Part shown: positions 1 to 17,666 of the stretch, in pieces
How positions within the stretch are numbered: the first letter of the stretch is position 1
Layout of the letters: each line of letters opens with the position of its first letter
Virus record (IMG/VR): IMGVR_UViG_3300042453_002432
Coordinates: 1 to 40,649 of that record
Length of the DNA: 40,649 nucleotides
Strand: one strand, 5' to 3'
Source: a virus
The notes under the pieces: generated by a model
Databases searched by the model: none
Seen by the model: the letters and a program-made list of their open reading frames with translations, nothing else
What the model was told of the DNA's origin: nothing
Made by a program: the position numbers and the translations under genes

Positions 1-2016
1 CTTCGCATGGACGAGGATGCCGAAATCGGTTTGGGTGTCGGCCCGAACCTTGGTTTGTTCACGACGCTACCATCGGCGGATGGCAGCTTCACCGAAGCTG
101 ATCTGACGCCACTCGGCAAGATCATGTATCGGGCGTTGGCTGGCATAGCGACCGATCAGCGTATGCGTGGAAGCGTGTCGTCGACGTCAAATACTGAATT
201 GACGGCTACTGACAAGCAACGTCTGAACGCAGTAGTCGCCGCTGGGCGTGTGCTGCTAGACGATCTACGGCGAGTTGAGGCAGACGGAAGCACCATTGGA
301 GACGCCCCGGATGAGGCGTCGGCGCAAGCCGCCTACGATAAGGCGCGTGACGCTGCGGTTCAGGCACGGTCAGACTTTGAGCGTGATGTGCTGCCGAAGG
401 TGGTGAAGTCCGTCCTAAAGAGTGCTCGGTTCTGGACCAGTGAGACAAGACAAGTGTTCGCCGAAATCACCGCTAGTGACGATTACACCGTAGAGCTTGA
501 TGACCTCGGTCTTGGCTTCCGTCTGACTTATCCAGACGGTGCGTTCGTTACTATCAAGAGTGTGTCCGGTCAGCGTGGAGCAAGCGAAGGAAAGTTCGTT
601 GGCTATGTAGTTGATGACGTGACTCCCGCCAACGGCGAGTCGTTCGCGCCAAGTTGGACAGAGAGCCGATGGAGGGCACCGAAGGCCGTCAGCGAGTCCG
701 GGCGCGAAGTGATGAGGCTTGGCGAGGTGCGTGGCAAGGCGTTCAACGAATTGGGGTACGCGCAAGCTGCGGCTAAGTACGGTTCGCTAGAGGAAGCCAA
801 GCGAGTGGAGGGCGGAGCGATTCGCGATTCGTTTGTGCCGGAGATGCTGCGAATGTTGTCGCGCGCTAAGGTTGGCGGCGGTCAGTACGGCACGTTTGAT
901 ACCGCTGACGGTGAGACGTTCCGGGTGACTCCACATGGTCGCAATGACGTCGGTGGTTTCGCGGAACTGTTGGAAGTGCAGGGGCTGGACATTGACGATG
1001 TAATCGCTCAATTGTCGGAAGCCTCGTTGACGACCGACCAATACGCTAATGATTTCAGCTACAGCGTTCGCTTGCGTCGGCCGGACGGCACGGAGACGCC
1101 GATGACGTTGACCGCACAAATCAATACGTCATCATGGAAGGAGCCGTTTGTTCTCACCGTTCAGCGTGAGTCGGGTTCTCCGCTTGGCGATCTGGGCAAC
1201 ATCGCCTTTGTCGTGAGCGCAGACCAATCGACTCGCGAGGTGACAGATTCGGAAAGGGACAAGGCGACGCGTGACTCTGCGTTGTATGAGCGAGCGGCCC
1301 TCTTGCAGATGTACCTCAAGAGGATTGCCGGTCGCCAGAGCAACGCAAAGGAGCGTTTGCCCAAGGTTCGACAGGCGTGGGCGGCTGAGGCGCTTGACGC
1401 AGGTGAACCGACGCCGTTGAGGTACACCGCTCGCGGTCCTCGCAAGCAGTTGGTAGCTGACGCTGGACGGTTTATCCCGAAACGACTGATCGAACGAGTC
1501 GGTCAAGTGAGCGTGAAGTCTGGCAGTCGGGGACGCAGTTACTATGCGCCGTGGGACAAGGAAATCACCATGAAGGATGATTCGCCGTCTACTGCGTTGC
1601 ATGAGTTGGGTCATCATCTTGAGAAAGACCCGGCGCTCAATAGAGCCTTGTGGGCGTTCTATGTGAAGCGCACGGGGGGCGCGTCGACGCAACCTGTGAA
1701 GATGCAGAAGTTGTTGAAGGGCTACGGTTATCGGAAGGATGAGGTTTCGCGTCCCGACGAGTTCTTTGTGCCGTATGCCGGAAAGGCGTATGACGGCAAC
1801 GAATCCCGTGAAGGCGTGAGCAGCTATGAGATGTTCACGATGGGCCTTCAAGGGGTGTTCTACGGCCATCGTGGAGAGAAAGGCGCTGTCATTGACGATG
1901 AGTACGCGTCGTTCATCCTTGGGGCTTTGTTGTTGTCGTCGCGTGGCGATGATGAGCGGTCGGTGTCGGATGGGGCTGACGTTGATGCCGTCGTTCCGAC
2001 AGGCGGTGAGGCGTGA
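1..2016 (+). CDS. Large head-region protein with C-terminal zinc metallopeptidase (zincin) domain, 5' end possibly cut
   Basis: The frame is open to the left edge; the first ATG is at base 7, so the true start may lie upstream (at least 669 residues are visible). Near the C-terminus, around residue 532, is ALHELGHHLE, a classic HExxH zinc site with catalytic Glu. About 75 residues later SYEMFTMG offers Glu at about residue 608 as the third zinc ligand, an arrangement seen in metallopeptidase domains of phage polyvalent and MuF-type proteins. The remaining 500 residues are not recognised. The stop overlaps the next start (GTGA), so it heads a translationally coupled run. By position upstream of the capsid gene and by domain type, I infer a virion-associated protein delivered with the DNA. 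A role purely in head maturation cannot be excluded. Zincin call is firm; delivery is inference. Confidence 0.75.
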   Translation, partial: LRMDEDAEIGLGVGPNLGLFTTLPSADGSFTEADLTPLGKIMYRALAGIATDQRMRGSVSSTSNTELTATDKQRLNAVVAAGRVLLDDLRRVEADGSTIGDAPDEASAQAAYDKARDAAVQARSDFERDVLPKVVKSVLKSARFWTSETRQVFAEITASDDYTVELDDLGLGFRLTYPDGAFVTIKSVSGQRGASEGKFVGYVVDDVTPANGESFAPSWTESRWRAPKAVSESGREVMRLGEVRGKAFNELGYAQAAAKYGSLEEAKRVEGGAIRDSFVPEMLRMLSRAKVGGGQYGTFDTADGETFRVTPHGRNDVGGFAELLEVQGLDIDDVIAQLSEASLTTDQYANDFSYSVRLRRPDGTETPMTLTAQINTSSWKEPFVLTVQRESGSPLGDLGNIAFVVSADQSTREVTDSERDKATRDSALYERAALLQMYLKRIAGRQSNAKERLPKVRQAWAAEALDAGEPTPLRYTARGPRKQLVADAGRFIPKRLIERVGQVSVKSGSRGRSYYAPWDKEITMKDDSPSTALHELGHHLEKDPALNRALWAFYVKRTGGASTQPVKMQKLLKGYGYRKDEVSRPDEFFVPYAGKAYDGNESREGVSSYEMFTMGLQGVFYGHRGEKGAVIDDEYASFILGALLLSSRGDDERSVSDGADVDAVVPTGGEA

Positions 2017-2312
2017 GCAACCTGACGTGGACTGCGACGTTCGACGGTGGCGTGACTGTGGTCGTGTGGTCTGACGAGTGGGCAGTAGTTTCCGGCGATC
2101 CCGAGTCGGCAGAGATGGTCCGTCAGCGGATACAAGATTGCGTCGATACGGGTTGGCCGGAACTTGCTGGGTTGGCGGTGGATACGTCTCCGGGTTGGGA
2201 CCATGACTGGACGTATCTGCGATTGAAGGCGTTGGGGGCCGAGGTTGTTGGGTCGTGGCCGCAGGAAGCTGAGGTCGACATGGAGTATCCGCCCGACACA
2301 ATCATCGGCTAA
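2013..2312 (+). CDS. Small protein of unknown function, 99 residues
   Basis: It starts at GTG overlapping the previous stop (GTGA), which implies coupled translation with the metallopeptidase gene. The product is acidic and rich in Trp (WTATF, VVVWSDEWAVV, GWDHDW), suggesting a compact beta-containing domain; no known family is recognised. It sits between two very large genes, the same placement as the ~100-residue genes at 10503 and 12318, though I see no clear sequence similarity to those two. It may be a chaperone, immunity or regulatory partner of the upstream protein, but nothing in the sequence proves that. Its reading frame runs past the promoter-like site of the next gene only by a short gap. 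Confidence 0.65.
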   Translation: MSNLTWTATFDGGVTVVVWSDEWAVVSGDPESAEMVRQRIQDCVDTGWPELAGLAVDTSPGWDHDWTYLRLKALGAEVVGSWPQEAEVDMEYPPDTIIG

Positions 2313-2352
2313 TAGCGCGCTGATCGGCCTGCTGAGCGGCACGGCCGTCGCC

Positions 2353-2358
2353 GATAAT
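2353..2358 (+). promoter_or_regulatory. Candidate -10 (GATAAT), 6 bases before ATG
   Basis: GATAAT differs from TATAAT at one base and ends 6 bases before the ATG at 2365, so a transcript would start at or next to the start codon (leaderless). The same spacing recurs elsewhere in the window. An AAAGG just before the ATG could instead act as a short-spaced ribosome site. Confidence 0.4.
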
Positions 2359-2364
2359 CAAAGG

Positions 2365-4929
2365 ATGCCGTTCGATCCTGACGCTCCGATTCCCGTTCCG
2401 TATGCGCCGCCACGCGAATGGTTTGAGTCTGCTCCCGAGTGGTTTGATCCAACCGGTCCTCTGATTCAGATTGATAACGCTACTGGTCGGGTTGCGGCGA
2501 TCGTTGCCCCATACGGCGAGTGCATTCTGGACGGCACAGCAAACTGCTGGACTCCGCCGGAGAGCAAGACGGCATACGAGTACGCCCATGTCGGGTCGAT
2601 CGTCACCGAGGAGGGCGACGCCGTCAGGATCGCCAACATCGGTGGCGGCGTCCCTCACGCGAACCTGACTGCGTCTTCGTCTGTGGCGGCTGACCACTAT
2701 GCCAACACGGCATCGCGTCGCATGATCGGCCGGTACGTCGACGCTCCAGAGCAGGGCGGGGTTCTGTTTCTCGGTTCCATGTGGCCCGGTAGCACGAATC
2801 GGGACATGGTGGAGGTGCTGGCGTCGGCGTTGTCAGGGGACTGGCGTTGGATTCAGTCGCTCAACGACTATGAGATGGTTGGCGCTCAGCTGGTCAATAA
2901 TCCGGGGTTTCGGCCGGTACCTGCGGGTGCGCGACGTGCTTCAGCGGCGTTCGTCGCCTACAGGCCCGCTGTAACGGCCTCTGCAAGTACGCCACCTCCG
3001 GTGATCGGTGAGTGGCGCGCCACTTCGGCCCCACCCGTAGAAGCCGTTGTGGCGCGTCTAGCGGCGTTGTCGGAGGCAGCCGGTCGAATCGCCGAGCTTG
3101 CGGTGGTTGATGCGCCGCTTCCGCCTGCCCGTACGGCTGCGCCCCGACGTCGTGGTGGACGGGTGCCACGCGTGCCGGGGACAGGCAAGGTCGTCGACGG
3201 TGACGGCGACGGGAAGGTCAATGACGGGACTCCGGCGGAGCGTCCGGCGACTCCTGCTGAAATCAAGGCTGGCAAGTTGTTGAGGCAGCAGCAACGGTCC
3301 GGCAAGGGTGCTCCGAAGATGAGCACACGTTCGACGCGTGAGCGGCAGTTGAAGCGCAACGAAATGACGGCTCGGCGTCGTCAGAGTCGTGAAGCGGCGA
3401 AGGCGCCGAAGCCCGCAAAGCCGACCTCCCCTCCGAAGGCGAATCGCAGTCTGGGTGATGGGAACGTGATGACGTCCCGGGGTGTTCGTCGTCGAACGTA
3501 CAACCGTGAGAAGGGCGGCTTTGACTACGTCAAGCCGGATACCGGCGAGCGGCCCAAGGCGCCTGCACCGTCCGGTGGGAAGACCGTGGAGGAATCTGCT
3601 CGAATCCAAACCCCTATCCCGATGGACGTTCCCCGCACTGGGATCATGCGTGATACGTCCGCTAAGGCTGGCGATAGGCGTGAGGGGGCGTCAGGGCGGA
3701 TGTTTGAACTGTCGTCGGATAAGTCTCAGTGGGTTGACTCCGATGGAGCGCCTCTCACCGACGCCCAAGTGAAGGAGGAGCAATTGATGCCTCCAGAGCT
3801 TGCTGGAGACATTGACGCCGAGTGGGAACACGCAAGCGGGATTGCTGACCGCGAGGGGTTCAAGGGGGCTGAACGCGAGGCATTCCTTGCTGACATGATT
3901 TCCGACAATGGAGATTGGGGCGGTGAGGTTGCGTCCAACGCGCAGGTTGACGCATGGATCAAGGCACGACGTGACGCCGAGGCAGCCCAACCGGCTACGA
4001 ACCGTCAGCTGAAGCCACCGCCGTATCGGCCTCGTCCTGACAGCGCATCTGGATCGGACTCGGATACCGCTGGTAGTGCCGAGTTCAAGGCGGAGGACGC
4101 AGTGCTGTCCGCCGAGGATAAGGAAGCGATCACTCCGGGGGTCTCTCAGCCCGTTGCAGACAAGCTGCGAGCGGACTTCGGTGAGGAACTTCCCGGAATC
4201 ACGGGGGGCACTGGAACGAAGGATGATCCGTTGACCGTCTCAGACGTCGACTCTGCGGTTCGGCTGATTCAGAACGGCAAGTATCACATCAAGATGGATC
4301 GCCCTGACGAGGTGTCGACGTTGCTGGATCGCTTGCAAGCGATCGGCGACGACGCGTACAAGAAGGGGGAGAAGGCTCCCCTCTATGACCTGTGTCGCGT
4401 GACGGTTGAGGGAACCAACTTGTTCTGTCCGTCACCGAAGGTTGAGGATCGGATCAACATGCCGCAGTTCGCTACGGCCGATCCTGTGCCCGGTTCTATG
4501 GCTGACAATCTGCCGCGCAACGCAAAGGGCGAGGTTGATTTGGCTCCGGCGTTCTTCGATCACCTGCGACGTGATCGTGGCGTTGTTGTGACTGAGGATG
4601 TGACGGTGCCAGCTTCGCATCTGCGCGCATCACAGAATCAGCTGAACGGGGCGAAGGTCGCCGGAATGATGGGGGCGATGGAGCGTGGTCAGATGCCGCC
4701 CGGGTCGATCATTGTGACGTCAGACGGCTATGTGGTCGACGGGCATCACCGTTGGGCGGCAACCGTTGGACGTGGACTAGAGGGCGGCGGCGAGGACATT
4801 ACGGTTACTCGTATCGACGCAGACATTGTCACGGTGCTGGAGTGGGCTAACAAGTTCACTCGGGATAACGGATCGCTGCCGAAGGCTGCGGCGTTGCGTC
4901 CACGTCCGTGCCGTAACTGTCGGGGGTAG
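2365..4929 (+). CDS. Capsid-maturation-protease-like domain fused to a C-terminal ParB-like domain
   Basis: 854 residues from ATG at 2365. The frame is open from 2245, but that stretch lies inside the previous gene, and the ATG at 2365 has an AAAGG and a -10-like GATAAT just upstream. Residues ~25-190 (GRVAAIVAPYGECIL, VGSIVTEEGDAVRI, HANLTASSSVAADHY, ALSGDWRWI) match a pattern I know from actinophage proteins annotated as capsid maturation protease. A linker has a DGDGDGKVND calcium-loop-like motif near residue 277, then a long basic, proline- and alanine-rich low-complexity stretch. Near residue 790, GYVVDGHHRWAA is the signature of the ParB/sulfiredoxin-like fold, found as effector domains in phage polyvalent proteins. 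No portal or separate protease is visible nearby. I infer a processed head protein whose C-terminal half is carried in the virion. Cleavage and nuclease activity are unproven. Confidence 0.7.
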   Translation: MPFDPDAPIPVPYAPPREWFESAPEWFDPTGPLIQIDNATGRVAAIVAPYGECILDGTANCWTPPESKTAYEYAHVGSIVTEEGDAVRIANIGGGVPHANLTASSSVAADHYANTASRRMIGRYVDAPEQGGVLFLGSMWPGSTNRDMVEVLASALSGDWRWIQSLNDYEMVGAQLVNNPGFRPVPAGARRASAAFVAYRPAVTASASTPPPVIGEWRATSAPPVEAVVARLAALSEAAGRIAELAVVDAPLPPARTAAPRRRGGRVPRVPGTGKVVDGDGDGKVNDGTPAERPATPAEIKAGKLLRQQQRSGKGAPKMSTRSTRERQLKRNEMTARRRQSREAAKAPKPAKPTSPPKANRSLGDGNVMTSRGVRRRTYNREKGGFDYVKPDTGERPKAPAPSGGKTVEESARIQTPIPMDVPRTGIMRDTSAKAGDRREGASGRMFELSSDKSQWVDSDGAPLTDAQVKEEQLMPPELAGDIDAEWEHASGIADREGFKGAEREAFLADMISDNGDWGGEVASNAQVDAWIKARRDAEAAQPATNRQLKPPPYRPRPDSASGSDSDTAGSAEFKAEDAVLSAEDKEAITPGVSQPVADKLRADFGEELPGITGGTGTKDDPLTVSDVDSAVRLIQNGKYHIKMDRPDEVSTLLDRLQAIGDDAYKKGEKAPLYDLCRVTVEGTNLFCPSPKVEDRINMPQFATADPVPGSMADNLPRNAKGEVDLAPAFFDHLRRDRGVVVTEDVTVPASHLRASQNQLNGAKVAGMMGAMERGQMPPGSIIVTSDGYVVDGHHRWAATVGRGLEGGGEDITVTRIDADIVTVLEWANKFTRDNGSLPKAAALRPRPCRNCRG

Positions 4930-4932
4930 TTC

Positions 4933-7900
4933 GTGCCCTATGACAGTCTCGGTATCTGGCATGATCCGGGCAACGGCCGGTTCGCTCCTCGGGGTTTCTC
5001 CACGCTGAAGGCGTTGGCGTTCAAGCTCATCAAGGGCGGACGCACACGGGACAGGGTGAAGAAGTCGGGTAAGGGACGTGCGCGTGTCGCCGACAACATG
5101 CTGTCTCGCGCCGGGATCGCAAAGGGTGACGTGATCGACGTCGTCTACAAGAACGACGACTACGGCAAGGTGCAGATCACCAGCAAGAGCGGCAAGCCCC
5201 GCTGGTATGACGTCCAGTGGGCGCGATTCGACGACGAGTACGTCCCTGACGATGTGGTCGATCAGCCGGATGTGACGCCGGAGCCGGAGCCGGTCAAGCC
5301 GAAGCGTGCTGGCTTCGCGTCGCGTGGCGCTCATCCGATCGTTGCGGAGAAGCCGTCTTATGAGACGGCAGCTGCGGCGAGCGTCGACGAGGTAAGTGCC
5401 GAGGACCGACAAGAGTTGAGGAGCTTGTTGGACGCTCACAGCAAAGGCGACAGCGCCGCCTTTGCGGATGACGTTGTGCCTCGCTGGAACGCGTTGATGA
5501 AGAAGCTCAACCTTGATCCGGCTGTGTTCCCGATTGACAGCAAGCAGTTCGACAATGTGACAACGGGGTTGACTCCCTTTGTCGCCGAGAAGCGCGGTCG
5601 ACCGTCAGCCCTCCACATTGTGCGTGATGCCGATGGGCGCGGTGTGGCAATCGTTGAAACCATGTCAGACCCTCCGTTGCAGGTTGAGCTTGAGGCTCTC
5701 GGATTTGTGGCAGACATTGGGGCGACGGTGCGTGTCGGCAGCGTTGTCCGTCAGGCGTGGGACGAACCGCTATTGAATATGTATGGACTCTCATCGAGGT
5801 TGATGCCAGCGGAAGATAGCGACGCTGCGTTCGACATCTTCAAGCGTTCGTACAACGCTCAACGTCTTATGACGCAGCTGAATCCGTCGGGCGGCATTCC
5901 GGTGGTTTCAACGGATGATGTGTTCATGCTTCCACCGACCGCCGTAGGGAGCATTGGTCCGGGCAACGCCTACTCCTATGACATTCAACCGGCGCTAGTT
6001 CGGCTGGACGGTTCGATCTACTTGGTCGGCACAGATCGACACTCTCCCAGAAACGCGATGTTTGATCTTATGACGCAACGGCAAGGCGACGCCAAGCTCA
6101 TTGCGTTGCCCGATACTCCCGAGAACTGGGCGAAAGCTCAGCTGCTTGTTTCAAACGACGCTGGGCGAAGCGACAAGATGTCTCCCAAGATGCTGTGGGC
6201 AGCGACGACCGTGAATCCGGATGGGACGTACACGGTCGATACCGGAGCTAACAGATCGGTGACGTTCGGGTTGGATGACGCGTATCGCCGATTGTTCGAT
6301 CAGGTCACGCTGTTCACGGCGAAACAGGACCCGCCTAACCAGTCAAGTCCAAAGCCGCCGATCAGCAAGATTGGATCGTCGTATCCGTGGACACATCAAG
6401 GTTCTGCCCCTGACAAGCTGCCGTGGCGACCGCCACTTTCTAGTAGCCGTTCGTGGTGGACGTTGGTTACAGGTCAGCAGGCGGAGACGTCTATTGACAC
6501 CGGAGTCGCCGGGTTGACGCAGACGGTGTTGTCGCCGGACTTTCAGTATCCACCGATGGACTTGAATGACGCGTTGACCACTAACCAAGACACGGTGCGT
6601 GACACGATTCGCATGTCGTCCGGGTTCAAGCCGCAGTCTGTAATCAGTCGCCTTGACAAGACGTTCGGACGAGTCAAACAGCAGATCATCTTCGGCAATG
6701 ATGAGGGGATCACGTTCGCCGTGCCCGCTAGGCCGGCAAATGTCAACCTTGCCGACCTCGCATCCCTTGAGAAAGCAATGCCGGTGTTGGATCAGCAACT
6801 GTTGAAGGACATGACCGAAGCGTGGGACCGGTTGGGCGGTGAGCGTCTAGCGATCAGGACGATAAGCACAGACGCCAAGGTTGACGGTGAGTGGACAAGC
6901 GTGCCGTACGACGCGTATCAGATGGCACCTGTACGACCGGACCTCCCAGCCGAAAGCGAAGTCACTTCTACCCTTCCGGGGCCGATGCAAGTCGCATACA
7001 ACGAACAGCTGTATCAGACGGCCGATCAGTGGTTCGGGATGTTCCAACGTGGTGTGGCTAAGGATGCTGTATCGGAACTATCGCTCTTTGACGTGCCAAC
7101 CTTTGCGCCGTTTGTCAATCGCGGCGCGTCCCAGCCCATACGCAGAGATGGGAAGATCACGCTTTCAGGTCAGGCTCCCCCTCTCGCTGACAACCTTGAT
7201 GACTGGGTGAGCATGTATGAGGTGGCGTACGACCCTAACCAACAGAAGCTCTACACCTACAAGGCAGATGGAGACCTGTCGTCTAGGGCGACCATGTCGA
7301 AGGTGACTCCGGATGATGTGCGCTTGTTGGCGCGCCTGCTTGTCAATGGCACAAGACCAAGTGAGACCGGCAAACTAGAACGACGTAGTCCGCTGTTTGT
7401 GAAGGATGCGCTTGCGCTACTGAAGGCCGGACGCGTCAAGGTCGACGACGACTTCCGCTTGTACGTTGACACTCCGAAGGGTCGACAGACGTTTGACAGC
7501 GTTGACGATTTCCGTGATTGGGATTCCGCTACGCAGATTACCGAGCAGGCCGACGCAGAATTGAGTGCGTTGGGCGGTGTAACTGCCGAGAGTTTCAGCG
7601 AGGACGCGTTCAGGGAGGTGTCGCGTCGGGCGTTGCGTATCGGTGTCGATAATCCGAAGTCAAAGCTCAAGGCGTTGAAGATTGAGCGGAACGGCAAATG
7701 GGCCTCGCAAGGCGAAGATTTGGAACGAGCGAAGCGATGGTTGTTGAAGTTCCCGGTTGGAGATGTGGCTCTTGCATCGTTGATGACGGACCTTGCAGCG
7801 TTGCCCGATGACCCAATGGCGAAGGTCGTTGTAAAGGGAGCCGGTGCGGAGAAAGACATTCCGCGCGGCGACGGCGTAGTCGTGACGCCTGTCGCGGATG

Positions 7901-10506
7901 GCTACGAAGTTCCAGCGTATGTAGCAGCGAACTTCTATTACAACCGGTGGCGACAAATCGTCATGGCAAGTCGCAACGCACAGAATGATCCCGGCTTCCA
8001 GCAGCTGATAGACCACGTCGACGAAACGCTCAAGTACCTGCGCGCGTTTCGGATCAGCGATACCGAACCCGGCATTTCGTTCAATGACACGATGAAGGTG
8101 GCCTTCGACGACAAGGGTTCGTTGTCAAAGGCGCGGGCGATTGATGAACTGACCCGTGAACGATTCAACGCTGGTGATGACTGGCGACAAGTCTTGTTCG
8201 GCCGGATTGCCGATTTCGCAGCCGATTCTCCGGACGTGTGGTCGGCGCAAATGGCGACTGCTTTGCTGGACACACAGAATGGAAGCTGGGCGCAGTCTTC
8301 TCAATCACATTTCAGTACGATGTTGCAGTATGCCGTCATGGAAATGACAGGGTTCACCGGAGACGACTTCCCTGAGTGGTCGGACTTCCAGAATCGTCGA
8401 CAGAAAGTCAACGGCTACGCTGGTGCATACACCGAAGGCGAGATGATGCTCGCGCGACTTATGGCGTTGTCGACCTACACCCTGACGCAAAGTCAGCTTC
8501 AGGAAATGAACATTGGCGAGGATGACGTTGTGTTCCTTGCGCGTGGTTCAAGCGAACCAGCATGGAATCGTGCGGCTGCCGCGGGAGAGACGGTCAAAGT
8601 GTCGTCAAATCCTTTGTCGGCAAACGCGACGCGAACGGGTGTCGCTAATAGCTTCGGTGGCAGCATCACGGTCGGCTATCGGGTGCCGCGTAGCCGCATC
8701 TTCAGTACCGCACACACGGGACCGGGAACGTACAAAGAGGCTGAGGCGCTAGTGATGGGCGATCCCGCCGGTTACATCGGTCAAGCTAAGTATTCGCCGA
8801 GCGCGCCAGACATGACGGCACTAAAGAAGACGTTGAGCAGTCAGGTCGCTGAAACAGAGGCGGCGGGTGCGTTGAACATCGCTGAGACTGTCGGCATGAC
8901 GGCCGGTGACATGAGTCTGCTGCGTCTGCTGCGGAACAAATACACGTCTTATCCGTCACGGCAGTTGGCAGGAGAACGGGATACAGACCCCATTCGGCTG
9001 CTTCCGGTGCGGACGTGGTCTGCGGATGGCGGGCGATCGGACCTGTCGGACTTTCTAGCCGAGGATGATGAGCGGGTTGAGCGTGGGTTGACTGATCTTG
9101 GGATTGACTTGACGCAAGTTGAGGACGTCCCGTGGTCGGCGATGGACATAACGCATGAAGCGCGTGCCCGATGGGTGGGTCAGAGTCTCGCAGCGTATGT
9201 GCTCAACGCCCCTCTGGAGGAACGACCGGAAGCAATGACGCGTGCGTTGGCGGAGCTAAATGGCACCGATTTCACTGCGCCGTTCTACGTCAAACAAGAT
9301 GTTGTTCCAGCGGACGCTGATTGGTCGGCGAGTCAGCCAACGGCACCGGTTCAAGCGTTCAATAGCGATTATCTGCTTCGCAACATGAGCAACGAACTGA
9401 GTCTCGCTGGCAATAGCCAGTCGGACGTGATCTCACTGGCGGTCGATCCGACTGAGGTTGTCGGGCCGATGTTTCAAGGTTCCGGAAATGTTCTGACGCG
9501 ACAAGTGTCAGACCGGTTTCCGGCTTTCACGTCAGACTACGCCCGGTTGCGGCGATGGGGAGTGGCCGGAGACGCGACCGTGAAACGGATCGTTACGAAC
9601 GTGCCTACGACACGACCTGAAGCGGTTGACTACATTCAGAGGAGGAGCACGGAGCTAGCCACTCAAGCGTTTGAGCAACGCCTCGGTGCGGCGACCGGAC
9701 GCCCTGCACGGGGACGTGATTTCTCGCTGATGAGTGACGCGTCAGATGGCACGATCTTCGGTCCGGTCGATGACCGGCTGTATGTCATGGAAGCACAAGA
9801 TGGGCGACCGAACCGTCTTACCACCGTTGACGTCACCGACCCTGAACTCGCTGAATCGCTTCGTCAGCTGCGACGCCGAGTTGCTGTACCGCCGCAAGTC
9901 AGTATGTACGGTCCCACGTCGGCGGCAACGTCAGATACCTCTGTGGCGACTCTCTCAGAGGATTTGGGTATCAACATTACTTTGCTTGACAGTGAGCGGA
10001 CTTATTCCGAGAATGCGGACGCACGCCCTGACCAAGTTTGGGGACAAGCGGTCGTCTACGCGTTGTTCGACAGCAGTCTTCTGCCGGGAATGCCTAAGTC
10101 GGGATTGGACAAGGGGTTGGCGGATGAACCACAACGTGTGAGTTTCGGTGAGGCCGTTGACGCAGACGGAGCAGTAGCAATGCCGTCGTTCGACGAGTGG
10201 CTTCGGCTCTTGGACGCCAGAACGAAGCGGCTGATTTCGGATCGCATCGCTTCCGACGAAAGTAAGGGGGTCACCGTTGATGACCGCATCAAGGAGGCCG
10301 CCGCGGAAAGGTCTGTGACTGACAACGATTCGTTCGTCGCGCGTCTCCGGATCATCTACGATCAGCGGATGGCGTCGATCGACAACGCAAACGAACGGCG
10401 GGCGTTGTTGCAGCAGCTTGTCGATCTAGCGGCCTCGCAAGGTAAGGTGCTGGACGTGGACACGTTGGAACGAATGGTCCAGTCAAAGGCGTCGGTCAAG
10501 TCGTGA
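4933..10506 (+). CDS. Giant 1857-residue polyvalent protein with ADP-ribosyltransferase-like domain
   Basis: Starts at GTG three bases after the previous stop. Residues 1-110 form a module (IWHDPGNGRFAPRGF, then DNMLSRAGIAKGDVIDVVY and a basic beta-rich stretch) shared with the protein at 10783. Around residues 1170-1290 there is an R-S-E type ADP-ribosyltransferase pattern: helix LMALSTYTLTQSQLQEM, then VVFLARG (Arg near 1204), SSNPLS (near 1223) and a KEAEALV motif (ExE near 1268). This order matches ART domains at the C-termini of phage MuF-type proteins. The remaining ~1600 residues are not recognised and probably hold several further domains. Length and neighbourhood suggest a virion-packaged effector injected with the genome that could modify host proteins. 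The target is unknown. The ART call rests on motif order only; a structural prediction would settle it. Confidence 0.7.
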   Translation: MPYDSLGIWHDPGNGRFAPRGFSTLKALAFKLIKGGRTRDRVKKSGKGRARVADNMLSRAGIAKGDVIDVVYKNDDYGKVQITSKSGKPRWYDVQWARFDDEYVPDDVVDQPDVTPEPEPVKPKRAGFASRGAHPIVAEKPSYETAAAASVDEVSAEDRQELRSLLDAHSKGDSAAFADDVVPRWNALMKKLNLDPAVFPIDSKQFDNVTTGLTPFVAEKRGRPSALHIVRDADGRGVAIVETMSDPPLQVELEALGFVADIGATVRVGSVVRQAWDEPLLNMYGLSSRLMPAEDSDAAFDIFKRSYNAQRLMTQLNPSGGIPVVSTDDVFMLPPTAVGSIGPGNAYSYDIQPALVRLDGSIYLVGTDRHSPRNAMFDLMTQRQGDAKLIALPDTPENWAKAQLLVSNDAGRSDKMSPKMLWAATTVNPDGTYTVDTGANRSVTFGLDDAYRRLFDQVTLFTAKQDPPNQSSPKPPISKIGSSYPWTHQGSAPDKLPWRPPLSSSRSWWTLVTGQQAETSIDTGVAGLTQTVLSPDFQYPPMDLNDALTTNQDTVRDTIRMSSGFKPQSVISRLDKTFGRVKQQIIFGNDEGITFAVPARPANVNLADLASLEKAMPVLDQQLLKDMTEAWDRLGGERLAIRTISTDAKVDGEWTSVPYDAYQMAPVRPDLPAESEVTSTLPGPMQVAYNEQLYQTADQWFGMFQRGVAKDAVSELSLFDVPTFAPFVNRGASQPIRRDGKITLSGQAPPLADNLDDWVSMYEVAYDPNQQKLYTYKADGDLSSRATMSKVTPDDVRLLARLLVNGTRPSETGKLERRSPLFVKDALALLKAGRVKVDDDFRLYVDTPKGRQTFDSVDDFRDWDSATQITEQADAELSALGGVTAESFSEDAFREVSRRALRIGVDNPKSKLKALKIERNGKWASQGEDLERAKRWLLKFPVGDVALASLMTDLAALPDDPMAKVVVKGAGAEKDIPRGDGVVVTPVADGYEVPAYVAANFYYNRWRQIVMASRNAQNDPGFQQLIDHVDETLKYLRAFRISDTEPGISFNDTMKVAFDDKGSLSKARAIDELTRERFNAGDDWRQVLFGRIADFAADSPDVWSAQMATALLDTQNGSWAQSSQSHFSTMLQYAVMEMTGFTGDDFPEWSDFQNRRQKVNGYAGAYTEGEMMLARLMALSTYTLTQSQLQEMNIGEDDVVFLARGSSEPAWNRAAAAGETVKVSSNPLSANATRTGVANSFGGSITVGYRVPRSRIFSTAHTGPGTYKEAEALVMGDPAGYIGQAKYSPSAPDMTALKKTLSSQVAETEAAGALNIAETVGMTAGDMSLLRLLRNKYTSYPSRQLAGERDTDPIRLLPVRTWSADGGRSDLSDFLAEDDERVERGLTDLGIDLTQVEDVPWSAMDITHEARARWVGQSLAAYVLNAPLEERPEAMTRALAELNGTDFTAPFYVKQDVVPADADWSASQPTAPVQAFNSDYLLRNMSNELSLAGNSQSDVISLAVDPTEVVGPMFQGSGNVLTRQVSDRFPAFTSDYARLRRWGVAGDATVKRIVTNVPTTRPEAVDYIQRRSTELATQAFEQRLGAATGRPARGRDFSLMSDASDGTIFGPVDDRLYVMEAQDGRPNRLTTVDVTDPELAESLRQLRRRVAVPPQVSMYGPTSAATSDTSVATLSEDLGINITLLDSERTYSENADARPDQVWGQAVVYALFDSSLLPGMPKSGLDKGLADEPQRVSFGEAVDADGAVAMPSFDEWLRLLDARTKRLISDRIASDESKGVTVDDRIKEAAAERSVTDNDSFVARLRIIYDQRMASIDNANERRALLQQLVDLAASQGKVLDVDTLERMVQSKASVKS

Positions 10507-10799
10507 TGGAGACTATCTACCTGCCGGACAGTCCGGACCCTGATCCTGATTGGACTGCGGTTGGCGAGTGGTCTGTCGGCGACACGGTCGCTGTCGTGTG
10601 GGTACAAGAATCGCAGCCGTCAGACGAAATCCCTTTGGGGACGGTCCTGCCGTTCGGGATGTTTCCGTGGAACGAACCGGCTGATCCGGAATTGCGGTAT
10701 CCGTTGTGGACGTTGATGAACGCTGAAGCGTTCGCTCCGCTGGGTACGGCACTTAGCATGGACCCCGTGCCGCATCCGGACGGTGAGTCGGATGCGTGA
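10503..10799 (+). CDS. Small acidic protein, possible partner of the giant protein
   Basis: 98 residues; GTG start overlaps the giant gene's stop (GTGA), with an alternative ATG at 10506. It is acidic and rich in Pro, Trp and Asp. A stretch near residues 40-80 (VLPFGMFPWNEPADPE, then LWTLMNAEAFAPL) aligns by eye with the small protein at 12318 (VLWVWPYQDPNLL, WTLSQLEALFPQ) and more weakly with the N-terminus of the protein at 12671 (TVVFLATDPEAE, MTLTEAESKL). I infer a shared small domain repeated next to large head-region proteins, possibly a loading chaperone or immunity partner. No database family is recognised. Its 3' end overlaps the next start. Confidence 0.65.
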   Translation: MMETIYLPDSPDPDPDWTAVGEWSVGDTVAVVWVQESQPSDEIPLGTVLPFGMFPWNEPADPELRYPLWTLMNAEAFAPLGTALSMDPVPHPDGESDA

Positions 10800-12321
10800 T
10801 GTGGTTCCCGGAGATTATCTGCGGCTGAAGGGCTTGTGGAACGATCCGGGTAGTGGCCGCTTTATCAAGCGTGGTTGGTCGACAGGTAAGGCCCAAGCAA
10901 TCGCCCGTGCCGCGAAGGGGTCGGTGACACGCGGACGTCTCTTGGAGTCGGGACCGGGTCCGGTTCGCATTGCTGACAATCGGTTGCTGCGGTCGGGGCT
11001 AAGGAAGGGTGACGTCGTCCAAGCAGGTTATTTCGACGACAAGTACGCAACGATTCGAGTGGTGACAGAACGCGGCGAACGACGTTTCTTCAATGTTCGG
11101 TGGGAACGGCTTGATGATAGCTATGCGCCGTCGTCAGTAGATGACCCCGATGTGGATTTGCCGAACCCGGCACGGTATGAGCGTGTGCGGGATGCTGCGG
11201 CTCGCGCGTCTGATCCGGACATGATGATGCAGGCTGTCGCTGAACAGGCTCGGATTGAGTATGGGGTCTGGCCTGCAACGGCGTTGGACGATCCAGAGCA
11301 AGCACAAGCGTTCGTTGCGGCGGTCGCGAGAGCGGCGCGTGACACGGATGCGTTTCGTCGATCTTATGAGGCGTATTACGAACCGACAGGGGCGGAGTCG
11401 GTTGAGAATCCCTTGATCCCTCCGGAGACGCTGCTTACTGATATTGGGCTGCTTCCCGACTGGGCTAGCACCGATACGCACGCCGACGCGCTAGGGGCAT
11501 ACCGACTAGCGGACATGATTTCGCAGTTTCATCAAACGCCACGGATGGGTGAGCGTTGGTCTCCAATGGAGAACTCTCCGGTTGCCCGTCGGCTGACAGA
11601 GTTGAATCCCGGCTTCTACGACTTTGATGCTAGTCAGACCGATAGATGGGATGGGGAACGTGTTGCTGCGGCCACTCAGTTGTCTCCTCTTATGCAGCAG
11701 ATGATCGGCTGGTTTGGTCAACCTGCCTTGTCGACTGGCCGGTTCAGCGAACCATCGGTGCTGGCAGAAACACAAACGGATGTGGCGCAGATGACGCCCG
11801 AGAACACGCGAATGATGCTCGCTGACTCGGTGTGGACATGGTCGGATCGAAGTGATCCAGACGACCTCCCTCGGTTTGACGACGATCCGCCCGCTTACCG
11901 TCAAGGCGTGGACACGACGTTGAGCGGGACGCTCCGCCATGAGTACGGGCACTACATGGATAATCTGTACCAATCGGCGTATCAGATGTTCGACCCGACA
12001 CAGTCATCAAGCAAGGGCGATCAGCGCGATGCTGTGATCGCTGCGGCTGAGGCGGTTGCGACGCCAGATGGTAACGGTGACCTTTACATGCCGTATTGGT
12101 TTACCGGGATGCTGTCTGAGTATTCGTCGTCGTCACCACCGGAGATGCTGGCGGAGTTGTGGGCGATGATTTCGCATCCGGATTATCCAAAGTGGAAGCA
12201 AGCGTTTGTGGCGTCGCTGCGTGCTGACAACTCCAAAGCGAAGTTCCTTGCGGTGCTGAACGCTGCCGAAATCTACTTCAATCCGGAATCAGACCTATTG
12301 GTCAAGGTGGGTGATCTGTGA
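10783..12321 (+). CDS. Head-region protein with N-terminal shared module and HEYGH zinc metallopeptidase domain
   Basis: 512 residues from GTG at 10783; ATG at 10792 is an equally good start, and both overlap the previous gene. Residues ~12-115 repeat the module of the giant protein: LWNDPGSGRFIKRGW, then DNRLLRSGLRKGDVVQAGY and a beta-rich segment ending near RWERLDDSY. In the C-terminal half TLRHEYGHYMDNLY (His near residue 386) is an HExxH zinc site, and SPPEMLAELWAM near residue 455 supplies a likely third ligand Glu, as in phage-encoded zincins. The middle (150-380) is unrecognised. With the zincin at the window start this makes two metallopeptidases in one array. I infer a packaged effector or host-surface/cytoplasmic protease; a capsid-processing role is possible. 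Confidence 0.75.
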   Translation: MSRMRDVVPGDYLRLKGLWNDPGSGRFIKRGWSTGKAQAIARAAKGSVTRGRLLESGPGPVRIADNRLLRSGLRKGDVVQAGYFDDKYATIRVVTERGERRFFNVRWERLDDSYAPSSVDDPDVDLPNPARYERVRDAAARASDPDMMMQAVAEQARIEYGVWPATALDDPEQAQAFVAAVARAARDTDAFRRSYEAYYEPTGAESVENPLIPPETLLTDIGLLPDWASTDTHADALGAYRLADMISQFHQTPRMGERWSPMENSPVARRLTELNPGFYDFDASQTDRWDGERVAAATQLSPLMQQMIGWFGQPALSTGRFSEPSVLAETQTDVAQMTPENTRMMLADSVWTWSDRSDPDDLPRFDDDPPAYRQGVDTTLSGTLRHEYGHYMDNLYQSAYQMFDPTQSSSKGDQRDAVIAAAEAVATPDGNGDLYMPYWFTGMLSEYSSSSPPEMLAELWAMISHPDYPKWKQAFVASLRADNSKAKFLAVLNAAEIYFNPESDLLVKVGDL

Positions 12322-12644
12322 TGACCGTGACAAGCAACGGCAAGCTGTCGGCGACCGGAGCGATTCGGGAGGCGGTACCGGTCATTCTGGCGGCCGCCTT
12401 TGAGGAACAGCTGGCAAAGTACGGGACGAAACCGAATATGGATTGGTCGACACCTGTTCCGGATGGTTTCGACGTGGTCGGCGCGTTCATGTTTCTACCC
12501 GTTATCAAGCGGGCAGATCAGCCCTTGATGCCGTCGACCGTCTTGTGGGTATGGCCGTATCAAGACCCGAACTTGTTGGACGGCTGGACGTTGTCGCAGC
12601 TAGAGGCGCTGTTTCCCCAGTGGGAGCCGTCCGTGGCGCTCTGA
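12318..12644 (+). CDS. Small protein related to the 98-residue neighbour
   Basis: 108 residues, GTG start overlapping the previous stop (GTGA); ATG at 12321 is an alternative. The C-terminal half (VLWVWPYQDPNLLDGWTLSQ and LEALFPQ) resembles the C-terminal half of the protein at 10503 and the first ~60 residues of the next large protein, suggesting a duplicated small domain that has also been fused into a bigger gene. No known family recognised. Coupled translation with the metallopeptidase gene suggests they act together; a chaperone, stoichiometric partner or immunity function are all possible and none is shown. Confidence 0.65.
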   Translation: MMTVTSNGKLSATGAIREAVPVILAAAFEEQLAKYGTKPNMDWSTPVPDGFDVVGAFMFLPVIKRADQPLMPSTVLWVWPYQDPNLLDGWTLSQLEALFPQWEPSVAL

Positions 12645-12657
12645 CCCGTCCGGGTGT

Positions 12658-12663: not shown

Positions 12664-12670
12664 GGTTGGC

Positions 12671-15600
12671 ATGGCAGAGCCTGACATGCTGGATACCGTT
12701 ATTAGCGCGTTCGACTTGTTCGTTGTCGGCTCGGTTGAGGATTCGGGGGCGCTGATCTTGTCGCGTGATGGCCGGACACCAGTTGATGAGACGGTGGTCT
12801 TTCTAGCGACTGATCCAGAGGCCGAAATGACTCTGACGGAAGCAGAGTCGAAGCTGGGTGGGGTGACGTGGCTGATTGAGCCTGAGCCGTATGACGGCAA
12901 TCCGGCTGGGCCGTGGGCCGAGGGGGATCAAGCTGACGGGATGGTGGACGTCGCCGCAATGGCAGATGAGTGGACGCCAATGATGGCAGCCGTTGCTGAT
13001 CCGTCTGCGGAAGCGTTGGCGGCAGAACAACAGGCTGCGGTGCAGGACGTGGAGAAGCGAGTCGGCCAGTTGGAGGGGATGGTCGCTGAAATCATGTTGG
13101 CGAGCGTTGCCGATGAAGCGTTCGGCGCCTCGGCGACGGATGTGGTTGTGGTGGAGCGACCGATGCCACGGTTTGCTGCGTTGGGCGTGGAGCTTGCCGG
13201 GTTGGGGCGGACCGTGGCGCGTCTCGCTGCGGCAGACGAGACGATGGGCGAGGACTTGGACAAGCGGCTGTCAAAGGTGCTGGAGCGCCTAGACAAGCTG
13301 GAGTCGACGATCGCCGAGTTGATGGACGACAAGGTCGCGGATGACGAAATGGGCGATGAGGGGGACGAATCGGATGAGAGCGGGACGCTGGTAGACGAGA
13401 CGTTGCCTCCGGCAAAGACCGCAGCTTTCTTCACGAATACCCGAGGTGTTCGTGTGTGGCACGATCCGAATAGCGGCAAGTTTGCGCCTGCGGGGTTTGT
13501 GTCTCTGGACGTACTTCGACGTCTGTTCAATGGTTCCCCAGAGGCACGCACCGAGATTACAGAGGCGCTGCGTAAGGCCCGTAAGATTGATCCGAAGCTC
13601 ACGCTGGCGGATGCGCCGATTCGGGTGTTGGGGCCACGTCCGTCAGATCGCGAAAGCGGTTTGCATTGGGATGCGGCGAAGCGGTCATTGTTCTCGTCGT
13701 GGCGGCGTTCGACGCCGGATGCTGATAAGTACGTCCGCAAGACGTTCGGTATTGGGCCGGATGAGTCAAGTCGTCAAAGCGTTCGCGCTGATCGCATGTC
13801 GGTTCGGTCAATGCCGGATGGCGCACGACCGGAAATTGATCCGACAACAGGCGAACCGAGCGACACCGATTTCTCGGTTGCGGAGTTCCGGAACGGTGAC
13901 GTGAACTTCTACTTGTCCTACGCCGCCGACGCTGACGAGTATCAGTTGGTTCGATCGCCGAACGATCCGATCGGCATTGACGAGGTCGCGGTTGAGAGCG
14001 GCAAGTTCCCGATGGGTACGAGTGCTCAGGAGGTTGCGGCGACGTTGGCGTCTCGCGCCGGTTTCAATGATTTCGCTGACGCGTTGGACGCCGAGTTGAC
14101 TGACCGGATTAGTGGCCCACCAGTAGACACGTTGGCGGCTGATCGGGTGCAAGCTAGTCCTGTTCCCCGAGGGGCTAAGCCACAAGTTGACCCGCTTACT
14201 GGTGAGCCAAGCAGAGTGGACTTCGACGTTGCGGAGTTCCGGAACGGCGACGTGCGGTTCTATCTGAGCTACGCCGCCGACGCTGACGAGTATCAGCTGA
14301 CGCGCAGCCCTAACGATCCGCTCGGCATTGACGAGGTTGGCGTTGCGAGCGGCAAGTTTCCGGCTGGTACAAGCCCGGAAGAAATTGCGGCGACGTTGGC
14401 TGACCGGGCGGCATTTCGGGATTTCGCTGACGCGTTGGACGCCGAGTTGACTGACCGGATTAGTGGCCCACCAGTGGACACGTTGGCGGCTGATCGGATG
14501 CGTGTCGCACCGGCTGTACGTCCAATGGATAGTGCGATGGCACGCGTGGCGTTGCAGCAGATCGGCACGATGAACGTCATGGCAATCTCCGGTGGACGAT
14601 CCAGTATCGACGCTGAGGGACGACTAGTGCTTCCCGTTGCCGCTGGTTATCGGGTGCGCGTGTCGCTTGCTCCGAACGACACCTACACCGTGGAGCGGGT
14701 GTTTAGTCGTGGCGGCGTTGATTCGGTCAAGGGTCGTGTCGACACGGTGTATGACAGCGAGCTTGGCGAGGTGGCCTATCGGGCGTCGAATTTCCGGGAT
14801 GGACCGTTCGGCCCTAGCGATTCAACATTGATGGCGAATCGCATGACGCTAGTAGATGCGTCCGGCGTAGAGCCGTTCGACGTCGACGCGTTCATTCGCA
14901 ACAACCCTCAGCGTGAAGGTGAGGAGTTGTTTGCGTGGCAGGGTCGGATCGTGGAATCGCTGCCGATTGACGTGCAGTCTGAGGTCTTGTTCCAGTTGCG
15001 GGAGACGTACGACGCATCTCCTCGGGTCGCAGCTGGCATGGAACGCTGGCAGCAGGATCACGGTTTGCCTGCTATCCCGCCGGGTTTGTCTGACGAACGC
15101 GCTGATCTAGACGAGGCGAATCGTGCGGCCACCTTCTACGAGGGAGCGCCTGACGCTTCAGCCGATCCGGAAGTGCAGGCTGCATACGCTGACTTTGTGC
15201 AGCAGAGCGAGGAGATGTGGAGCTTCCTGACCCGCCCTGAAAGTGAGGGCGGTATGGGAATCAGAGTTGAATTCACCGATCAGCCGGACCCTTATGCGAC
15301 CGCTGAAGCTCAGCGTGACGACATTGAGAATAACGGCCACTTGTGGATTGAACGGGGATTGGGCGGCGAGCATTCAGCGACCGTGAGCGACGAGGAATAC
15401 GACCGCTTTCGTGCTGTCCATGACGTGTTCGGGCACGCAGGTATTGGCAGCGGCTTTGACCGACATGGCGAGTATCAGGCGTGGCTTGCTCATGCGGCGA
15501 TGTATTCCGGCTTGGGGCGTCGGGCCATGTCGACCGAATATCACGGGGTCAATAGTGCGGCGTGGTCGGGCGCACCCGGCACACCGGGAACGGGCAAGAG

Positions 15601-15880: not shown

Positions 15881-15914
15881 ACGGTTCGGGTTTCGGAATG
15901 GTCTAGCCGTAGTA

Positions 15915-15920
15915 GATACT
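15915..15920 (+). promoter_or_regulatory. Candidate -10 (GATACT), 7 bases before ATG
   Basis: GATACT ends 7 bases before ATG 15928 with no clear Shine-Dalgarno in between, so a leaderless transcript is likely. The gap after the preceding stop (47 bases) also fits a new transcription start. Confidence 0.4.
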
Positions 15921-15927
15921 GACGGCC

Positions 15928-16620
15928 ATGAACGTGTTCCCACAGGTGGACGGGCGGTTGATGGCGCGCGTCGCAGCGGTCGGCAAGGGTAAGCGCCGAC
16001 GTAAGCGTGCTGATCGCGGTCCGAATCCGAAGTCCACCCCGAAGGAAATCGCAGGTAAGCACGGACATAAACCGCACGGCAAGAGCATCTTGTGGCCCGC
16101 CTTGTATGAGCATCTGCGGGCTAAGGGAATGACTAAGAGCAAGGCCGCGCAGATTTCTAATGGCATGTGGCGAAAGAAGCGCGGGTTGCCGCCGAAGTCG
16201 GTGCCGGGAAGCAAGGGCAAGGTTCCTATCGGGAAGGCTGGCGCCGTGGAAAGCGTCGGTGATGTAAAGGAGGCCGTCGTGGCCGAAATGTCTTCTGGCG
16301 GAAGGTCTCTCTCTGTTGCTGCCCGTGAGAACGCAGCCGAGGCGGGGTTTGCGCTTCCGGATGGGAAGCTGCCGATCCGGAATCGGGACGAGCTTGCTGC
16401 GGCAATCAGCCTGCGCGGCAAGGTTGAAGGGCACTCCATGCGAGAGATTCGTGACCACATCGTGCGTCGCGCCCGAGCGTTGGACGCTGTAGCTGATCTA
16501 CCGGAGGCGTGGCGTATGCCGAAGCAGGGGGCGATGCAGGCGTACCGATGCGCGAAGACTGGTGGCGTGATGATGATGCCGTGTGCGGGTTGCCCGAATC
16601 CTGCTGCTTGTGCGATGTGA
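15928..16620 (+). CDS. Basic actinophage head-region protein
   Basis: 230 residues. The N-terminal third is very basic (KGKRRRKRADRG). Residues ~50-90 hold KSILWPALYEHLRAKGMTKS and AAQISNGMWRKKRG, a helical segment common in phage head-region proteins (pattern YEALRxxGxSKxxAAxISN). Residues ~130-195 hold AARENAAEAGFALPDGKLPI then RNRDELAAAISLRG and HIVRRARALDAV, a conserved helical domain often attached to prohead protease or scaffold genes. The C-terminus has a small CAGCPNPAAC cysteine cluster. The stop is followed after two bases by the next ATG. Probable structural or assembly role; no enzymatic function seen. Confidence 0.7.
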   Translation: MNVFPQVDGRLMARVAAVGKGKRRRKRADRGPNPKSTPKEIAGKHGHKPHGKSILWPALYEHLRAKGMTKSKAAQISNGMWRKKRGLPPKSVPGSKGKVPIGKAGAVESVGDVKEAVVAEMSSGGRSLSVAARENAAEAGFALPDGKLPIRNRDELAAAISLRGKVEGHSMREIRDHIVRRARALDAVADLPEAWRMPKQGAMQAYRCAKTGGVMMMPCAGCPNPAACAM

Positions 16621-16622
16621 CG

Positions 16623-17666
16623 ATGAACCTTGATGACCTTGACTTGAAGCCAACGGCAGGGATGGTCGCTGAGGCGAAGCGCGCTTTGGCGTGGAGGTCT
16701 GAACATGGCCGTGGCGGTACGGCGGTAGGCATTGCCCGTGCACGGGACATTGCGAATGGGTCACGGTTGTCTCCGGACACGGTGATGCGGATGGCGTCGT
16801 TCTTTGCCCGCCATGAGGTTGATAAGGGTGGTAAGGGGTTCAAGCCGGGTGAGGACGGATTTCCGTCGAATGGCCGCATAGCGTGGGCGCTATGGGGCGG
16901 CGACGCTGGAGCTAGCTGGAGCAGAAAGATGGCTGAACAAGTGAAGCGTGCTCGGACTGCGTCTGTGGCATCGCAACGTGCAGTGGTTTCTCACTTGCCG
17001 TTGGCGGAAGCTCAGGTGTCTGCGCTGCGGTTTCGTAGGGCGCTGACTCCCGCAGAGTTGCAGCAGAGGAAAGACGCAGCTAAGTCCGCCGCTGAGAAGC
17101 GTCGCCGTGGCGATACGACGACTGCCAACCCTCTGGAAGTTCGTCGGCGTGACCTTCGCGCGAAGCAGCTGAAGGAGACGGAGCAGCGGAAGGCGGCGGC
17201 GCGCCGTCTTCGCAAACAACGACGCGAGGGGCGTTATCTGCGGTCGGCGTTGAAGTCGGCAAAGCACGCGATCGGCCATGAGTTCGAGACGGCAGGAAAG
17301 CTCGTCAGCGGCGAGCATCAAGTCGTCCCGTTTGACTATCGGGTTCGCGTTGGGGCTGCCGCCTTTGAGGAGGGCAAGCACAAGCGTGATGCCACAGGGA
17401 AGTTTGCTGTGAAGTCGTCTTCGGAGCGTGCCCGAAAGGTCAGTGAACGACCGCCGGGTTGGAACGGCCGTTGTATGAATCGTGGCTATGCAGCGGACAA
17501 TCCAGATATTTGTGGTGGCGGACCGGCGATGAACGCTGACAAGCGCGACGGGGCAGCCGCACGATCGGATAAGCGACAGGCTGAAATCAAGGCGGCGCGA
17601 TCGAAGGGGTCGCAGTCGGCTAAGGGTCTTGCAGCTGCCGGTCGTCGTTCAGCAAAGGTCAAGTAG
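16623..17666 (+). CDS. Head-region protein with 'ARDISN/SPDTV' domain and basic coiled middle
   Basis: 347 residues from ATG 16623; an upstream in-frame start at 16509 lies within the previous gene and is rejected. Residues ~8-105 carry a domain common in phage head modules: KPTAGMVAEAKRALAWRSE, GIARARDIANGSRLSPDTVM, FFARHEVDKGGKGFKPGE, and GRIAWALWGGDAG. The function of that domain is unknown, although it is often fused to or next to capsid proteases. Residues 130-220 are a highly charged helix rich in Arg, Lys and Glu. Near residue 255 KHKRDATGKFAVK is a variant of the DxxGKF tag seen in the three large proteins upstream. The C-terminal 80 residues are basic and cysteine-containing. Likely packaged or capsid-internal. 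Confidence 0.7.
   Translation: MNLDDLDLKPTAGMVAEAKRALAWRSEHGRGGTAVGIARARDIANGSRLSPDTVMRMASFFARHEVDKGGKGFKPGEDGFPSNGRIAWALWGGDAGASWSRKMAEQVKRARTASVASQRAVVSHLPLAEAQVSALRFRRALTPAELQQRKDAAKSAAEKRRRGDTTTANPLEVRRRDLRAKQLKETEQRKAAARRLRKQRREGRYLRSALKSAKHAIGHEFETAGKLVSGEHQVVPFDYRVRVGAAAFEEGKHKRDATGKFAVKSSSERARKVSERPPGWNGRCMNRGYAADNPDICGGGPAMNADKRDGAAARSDKRQAEIKAARSKGSQSAKGLAAAGRRSAKVK

Follow-up and report, generated by a model that had tools for sequence, protein, structure and literature searches.

A short tag on giant head-region proteins may be a shared address by which cargo reaches virus heads

How does a virus decide which proteins travel in its head? The question is raised by the IMG/VR record IMGVR_UViG_3300042453_002432, a complete record of 40,649 bases classed as linear and here called the window, which opens with a block of very large genes (1-17666) upstream of its major capsid gene. 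Portal, protease and MuF proteins have their place in the head, and effectors would need loading. To our knowledge, the choice of head-entering proteins in phages other than T4 is largely open. Three of the large proteins carry one short tag, and forms of this tag recur in other phages behind head proteins and ahead of enzyme domains, a pattern that points to a shared label by which protein cargo is addressed to virus heads. We consider it somewhat better than an even call that the block is the head-cargo locus of an actinobacteriophage-like virus whose tag directs cargo into the head, marks a cleavage site, or both; that the tag has some role in loading or processing we hold to be fairly probable. 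The features on which the argument draws are the following, all on the plus strand.

1..2016 (+): P0001, 671 residues, 5' end cut; zincin near the C-terminus with HELGH at residue 534
2245-4929 (+): open frame of P0002, likely start 2365
2404..3120 (+): capsid maturation protease-like domain in the N-terminal half of P0002
4543..4866 (+): C-terminal ParB-like domain of P0002 (phrog_2859, 2.5e-14; phrog_1033, 0.014)
4933..10506 (+): P0003, an orphan giant of 1857 residues; relatives found for the N-terminal module only
4933..5337 (+): N-terminal module of P0003, common with P0004
4957..4995 (+): tag WHDPGNGRFAPRG of P0003
8530..8757 (+): candidate R-S-E ADP-ribosyltransferase site of P0003, motif only
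10783..12321 (+): P0004, 512 residues; N-terminal module and candidate HEYGH zincin (motif at 11938)
10837..10875 (+): tag WNDPGSGRFIKRG of P0004
12443..15880 (+): open frame of P0005, 1145 residues, start uncertain (12443, 12551 or 12671); N-terminal region, internal tag, tandem 131-residue repeat and HDxFGHA domain (motif at 15419)
13457..13495 (+): tag WHDPNSGKFAPAG internal to P0005, within the 21-residue match to P0003
15928..16620 (+): P0006, 230 residues; DUF7218 and a domain fused to the protease in actinophage DSL-LC01
16509..17666 (+): P0007, 385 residues; domain matching phrog_2859 164-266 at 16647-16949
17382-17408 (+): degenerate tag RDATGKFA of P0007
17994..19742 (+): major capsid protein P0010 (NF033847, 8.6e-50; phrog_777)

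The genes across the block all run in one direction, adjacent ones overlapping or lying at most about 50 bases apart, and 327 bases separate the block's end from the major capsid gene. A reading made earlier from the sequence alone (hereafter the sequence-only reading) had described a coupled array of large genes upstream of that gene, and the array lies at the positions it gave.

What ties the large proteins together was found by an all-against-all comparison of 43 hand-picked window frames. Residues 1-135 of P0003 and 8-145 of P0004 are homologous (44% identity over 140 columns, E = 7e-26), and residues 8-28 of P0003 match residues 338-358 of P0005 (21 residues, 57% identity, E = 4e-4). The core common to all three proteins is W[HN]DPxxG[RK]F; the module shared by P0003 and P0004 opens with this tag, written there as [WH][HN]DPxxGRF, and in P0005 the tag is internal. 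A regular expression for the tag, written after the tag had been seen, matches four times in the 43 frames, every time within the block, compared with a mean of 0.022 matches after shuffling (1000 shuffles, maximum 1).

Scans of IMG/VR with related peptide patterns show that such tags are not confined to the window. The pattern HDPxxGRFAP was found in eight stretches, and HDPxTGRF[AT] in 46 stretches with 53 matches, many of them near-identical copies; with three hits from a genome scan included, the 56 matches represent 37 distinct contexts. A single permuted control peptide of equal codon degeneracy was found in two IMG/VR stretches, in frames of 45 and 13 residues. Dereplication left 41 contexts from 62 rows, whose consensus is [VIL]-x-[KHR]-[YFA]-N-P-[NY]-H-D-P-K-T-G-R-F-[TA], often followed by glycines. 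The H, D, P, G and F of this consensus were fixed by the search patterns themselves. The asparagine at position -3, which is absent from every search pattern, is retained in 39 of the 41 contexts. Rows dropped before this count were L001-L006, L009, L015-L017, L061, L067-L076 and nine with a distinct frame of 63 residues. That frame carries HDPNTGRFT, ends THDPNTGRFTAVMSRWDSCD, occurs in nine of the 46 stretches (L020, L021, L029, L032, L036, L037, L039, L040 and L047) and was judged different from the tag, as it does not have the asparagine. The genome hits L015-L017 were likewise rejected as true tags and judged to be chance. A further pattern, WHDPxxG[RK]FA, was found in six stretches, five of which (L062-L066, four being copies of one protein) read NPWHDPxxGKFA, a form that bridges the common NPxHDPxTGRF and the form in the window. 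Among 20 virus records picked for having the tag, there are 40 tag matches, on a single strand in each record and at least two in 11 records, and none for the reversed pattern. Our guess is that many of the tagged IMG/VR contigs have Firmicutes hosts. A tblastn search with a 26-residue tag query returned no match, the query being too short to say much.

The families that bear the tag were examined with Pfam in 29 of the 39 frames that have it, namely 27 of the 37 in the main set together with L064 and L066; the remainder are L019, two of L025, L027, L033, L041, L042, L054, L055 and L058. Head-assembly families account for ten of the 29 (six portal, one of them below cut-off; two Peptidase_S78; one XkdF protease; one MuF) and enzyme or toxin families for five (two topoisomerase IB; one ART-PolyVal; two zeta toxin, being one protein in two records), with one DUF3626 and one weak acetyltransferase besides. 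In PHROGs, 35 tagged proteins match 53 families; portal families are matched most (three members), and head maturation protease and minor head families are among the 25 of those 53 that were listed. The tag lies C-terminal to the domain in eight of nine portal, S78 and MuF proteins, the exception being the Mu-type portal L022 with its tag at residue 5, and N-terminal to the enzyme domain in the topoisomerase and zeta-toxin proteins. No tag is covered by a Pfam stretch with E <= 0.01. Standing behind head proteins and before effectors, the tag is compatible with docking, with cleavage, or with the two combined as in T4.

The proteins could also be head cargo on which the tag is inert, a joint or linker between fused parts that recombination has spread and that plays no part in loading or cleavage. 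The frequent position between domains and the glycine-rich sequence that often comes next favour such a joint. We nevertheless find a passive joint doubtful. Conservation of the asparagine at -3 in 39 of the 41 contexts, which come from unrelated proteins, is unexpected for a linker; the tag of the prohead protease L007 ends five residues ahead of the stop; and in 11 of the 41 contexts the tag starts within residues 13-26 of the open frame, leaving no room for a domain in front of it.

Several tagged genes may occur side by side. In L010 they stand in a row, near-identical L008 copies giving ART-PolyVal and XkdF protease in Pfam, and a tagged HEYGH protein (by eye) adjoins scaffold-family and major head proteins. 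The ADP-ribosyltransferase (ART) protein L008 has tags at 266 and 557, between ART-PolyVal (62-213) and a sub-threshold ART match (717-772); ahead of the ART-PolyVal stretch only the variant NPYHGSDGRF is seen. On contigs with a P0006-like frame, NPWHDPKSGKFA lies on a zeta-toxin protein of 1481 residues that adjoins a portal-MuF fusion; in L064 this tagged protein matches zeta toxin at 9e-24 and has HESHH and other enzyme-like parts by eye. Two further observations concern tagged phage proteins. Topoisomerase IB domains occur in L030 and L049 (3.5e-26 and 4.8e-19), and from their sequences these are possible injected DNA topoisomerases. DUF3626 occurs in tagged proteins of two different phages (L026, 5.9e-13; L076:10169-11569, 7e-10) and is a candidate head-delivered effector family.

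Related phages were searched for similar blocks, as the sequence-only reading had proposed, and these were found in two actinophages: DSL-LC01 (OQ999401), which was assembled from Dishui Lake water and is predicted to infect Actinomycetia according to passages in PMC10611076, and the cultured Gordonia phage GodonK (NC_048176). Between its portal and capsid genes DSL-LC01 encodes the following proteins.

466 residues: tag RDRKGRFA; DUF3626
3289 residues: tag RDRYGKFA
603 residues: tag RDKTGKFA; P0007 domain, 57% identity over 89 residues
851 residues: protease; homology to P0002 and P0006

As in the window, a single block holds the tagged giants, the protease and the capsid gene, and the P0002, P0006 and P0007 domains are homologous. 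The blocks differ in order, the protease being encoded after the giant in DSL-LC01 and, as P0002, ahead of P0003 in the window; in the form of the tag, RDRxG[RK]FA; and in the giant itself, for which no similarity to P0003 was detected. The window set was said to be unusually large, and it is large; it is not unique, because DSL-LC01 has its 3289-residue protein between the portal and capsid genes. In GodonK, gp67 (1479 residues) lies after the portal gene and before the protease gene, whose product is homologous to P0002, and is 31% identical over 237 residues to part of the DSL-LC01 giant; no similarity of gp67 to P0003 was detected.

As the sequence-only reading proposed, P0001 contains an HELGH zincin: it matches phrog_33618 (5e-14) and, by tblastn, a head-region gene of Bacillus phage vB_BboS-125 (3e-9), with a weaker match to the 'minor head protein' family phrog_19443 (1.3e-3). 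Its HExxH motif and its homology to phage zincin-bearing proteins mark it as a predicted zincin metallopeptidase. The protease-like/ParB-like fusion proposed for the next gene is borne out in P0002, whose N-terminal half matches capsid maturation protease families (phrog_21470, 5e-22; phrog_859, 7e-22) and whose C-terminal half matches phrog_2859. Among the 20 matches listed from 1109 records, its relatives are 35-37% identical over 18-19% of the query and most are named capsid maturation protease; the N-terminal half is homologous to the 851-residue protease of DSL-LC01 and to GodonK gp73. Homology to phage head proteases and a location in the head operon make P0002 a putative capsid maturation protease. 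At its residue 318 (about 3196), between the protease and the remainder, there is a calcium-loop-like stretch, DGDGDGKVNDGT, which was not found in the other frames retrieved by then. P0006 and P0007 are basic (isoelectric points 10.6 and 10.3), and their domains occur in DSL-LC01 within the protease and in the gene preceding it. The sequence-only reading had also invoked a MuF-type protein, for which PF04233 was searched and not found in the window, where the N-terminus of P0001 is missing.

The HEYGH zincin proposed for P0004 stands as a motif at residue 386, with family matches only below cut-off (PF15887, 3e-4; NF045830, 0.004), both aligned on HEYGH. P0005 has HDVFGHA at residue 993, and the 1069 residues given for it in the sequence-only reading correspond to the ATG at 12671; as an established name, 'HDxFGHA polyvalent domain' finds no support in the main text of Iyer 2017 (PMC5512222), in which HDxFGH occurs 0 times. 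The C-terminus of P0005 matches phrog_3170 (function unknown, 5e-17), a domain with matches in 202 phage records, of which 188 are from Mycobacterium phages, and encoded as a separate gene of 188 residues near the genome end in Streptomyces phage Dagobah. Inside P0005, 13778-14521 is a tandem duplication of 131 residues with 73% identity. Searches of 50,697 phage records by tblastn with P0003, P0004 or the P0004 module gave no match, nor did sequence searches of solved structures with P0004 and the P0003 ART piece, or megablast of the first 25 kb of the window against phage records at the DNA level; in IMG/VR, peptide patterns confirmed no relative of P0003, P0005, the shared module or the capsid protein.

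Could these instead be ordinary assembly or structural proteins of the head (protease, minor head, scaffold-like), which remain in the particle without being injected as effectors? The protease-like half of P0002, the weak resemblance of P0001 to a minor head protein and the P0006 and P0007 domains fused to or beside the DSL-LC01 protease all favour this view. We regard it as unlikely, since tagged proteins of other phages bear topoisomerase IB, ART and zeta-toxin domains and the HDxFGHA domain also forms a separate gene in Dagobah; further, we know of no need in head assembly for zincins, a ParB-like part or an orphan of 1857 residues. The Dagobah gene, standing among small genes, lends something to a different view, in which the large proteins do their work in the producing cell, for takeover, for phage exclusion or as lysogen toxins, and do not travel in the head. 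This appears quite improbable, given the tight coupling to protease and capsid genes in both the window and DSL-LC01 and a tag that is common to portal and protease proteins. A head-cargo locus remains the reading that we prefer.

The largest member of the array, P0003, shows from residue 1200 an R...S...ExE pattern by eye, read at the outset as an ADP-ribosyltransferase. That assignment found no match in Pfam, PHROGs, NCBIfam, PF03496 or PF18760, nor with our own four-sequence profile, itself poor. Among 2000 shuffles of P0003, a tight regular expression fitted to the site occurs in 27 and a loose one in 1120; the site is retained as a candidate. Beyond the N-terminal module, P0003 has no convincing family match in Pfam, PHROGs or NCBIfam.

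In the mechanism that we envisage, P0002 would supply the capsid maturation protease, while P0001, P0003, P0004, P0005 and the ParB-like half of P0002 would be effector or cargo parts of the polyvalent type. The tag and the short segment preceding it would guide cargo into the head as it assembles, through binding to the scaffold, portal or capsid protein; alternatively, or in addition, the prohead protease would separate cargo from carrier at the tag. We infer that the cargo would then exit with the DNA and act in the new host, where proteins would be the targets of the zincins and DNA possibly that of the ParB-like part. The broader proposal that many unrelated tailed phages use N-P-x-H-D-P-x-T-G-R-F-[TA], together with its variants WHDPxxGRF and RDxxGKFA, as a portable signal by which protein cargo enters the head and is released inside it is put forward more tentatively, as something rather short of probable.

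Several observations weigh against these proposals. The WHDPxxGRF of the window is not the common NPxHDPxTGRF, and the two are equated through a short motif, with NPWHDPxxGKFA as the bridge. A scan of 84,980 bacterial and archaeal genomes with HDPxTGRFAP gave only three chance-looking hits, the T form being unscanned. Within one record, tags lie up to about 23 kb apart, and some may therefore sit outside the head operon. A loose regular expression gave four hits in 14 annotated stretches of phage DNA; window genes had led to 13 of these stretches and the tagged ART protein to one, from a Porphyromonas phage. Of the hits, the one in DSL-LC01 is convincing and three were judged chance. In 99 of the 122.6 kb of GodonK, the strict expression found no tag; HPRGADGRW, noticed by eye at the N-terminus of gp67, is a possible divergent one. 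The tag is thus common in places and not universal. Furthermore, 12 of the 29 tagged frames have no or a negligible Pfam family, no enzyme domain was detectable in P0003 with Pfam, PHROGs or NCBIfam, and AlphaFold models were unusable, with predicted local distance difference test scores of 37.7 for P0004 (two-row alignment) and 35.4 for the P0003 ART piece. Virion proteomics for a tagged protein was not found, no search having been aimed at each.

If the proposal holds, any enzyme fused behind the tag would become an injected effector. Portal, protease, MuF and effector proteins would all bear the tag, which would then be a general search key for head-delivered effectors and a route to unrecognised ones such as the orphan P0003. 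A short conserved tag on both cargo and head proteins is a testable address label, and it could possibly serve to put selected proteins inside harmless phage particles.

The remainder of the record provides context. As the linear record begins inside P0001, this gene is cut at its 5' end; the record is probably a fragment, and the window frames examined yielded neither a portal nor a terminase. A WhiB-like gene at 27086-27511 (phrog_12112, 5e-11) and relatives of the capsid protein in Arthrobacter, Streptomyces and Actinomycetia phages (eight records) point, on sequence grounds, to an actinobacterial host. Three small acidic frames (2013-2312, 10503-10799 and 12318-12644; 99, 98 and 108 residues; isoelectric points 4.05, 4.05 and 4.34) each overlap the stop of one large gene and precede the next, and are possible cognate chaperones or protective partners. 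Between the capsid and tail genes, 19761-23113 contains glycosyltransferase-like and methyltransferase-like genes (phrog_1721 and phrog_3382; others by eye), the frames 19761-20534 and 22379-23113 being mutually homologous; glycosyltransferases lie near the same place in TurkishDelight and GodonK. In 30353-38760, a head-tail adaptor and a major tail protein are present and an obvious tape measure gene was not noticed, the 1344-residue frame at 34726 appearing by eye fibre-like rather than tape measure-like.

How does the block compare with known systems? No description of the tag was found in the literature searched, subscription papers and preprints aside, and the main text of Iyer 2017 (PMC5512222), where polyvalent proteins are described and their packaging considered likely, names no such tag and contains 'linker' and 'targeting sequence' 0 times. 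Polyvalent proteins, as that text presents them, are large, lie near late genes, combine zincin, ParB-like and other domains and are proposed to be packaged and injected. P0002 likewise joins disparate domains, protease-like and ParB-like, in one polypeptide, and its block lies among virion genes; the window differs in spreading its domains over several coupled genes, three of which have one tag. MuF polymorphic toxins (Jamet et al. 2017), in the sections of PMC5576092 that treat them, are also head-module proteins with toxin-like C-termini for which head loading is hypothesised. A MuF domain was not found in the window, whereas some tagged relatives elsewhere have or adjoin one. In phage P1, according to a passage in PMC12810830, an N-terminal piece of DarA is removed by the prohead protease. 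A parallel to the proposed action of the tag is the capsid targeting sequence of T4, a short peptide that, by the account in parts of PMC9026906, sends unrelated proteins into the head and is processed; targeting of IPIII needs the first ten residues, some of which serve processing, and the prohead protease may itself use a similar propeptide. The T4 sequence is N-terminal and cleaved by gp21, whereas the tag also occurs between domains and near the C-terminus; the comparison draws on the position and conservation of the tag, and no homology is claimed. The array is accordingly a variant of the polyvalent head-cargo theme, of which the tag is possibly a new element.

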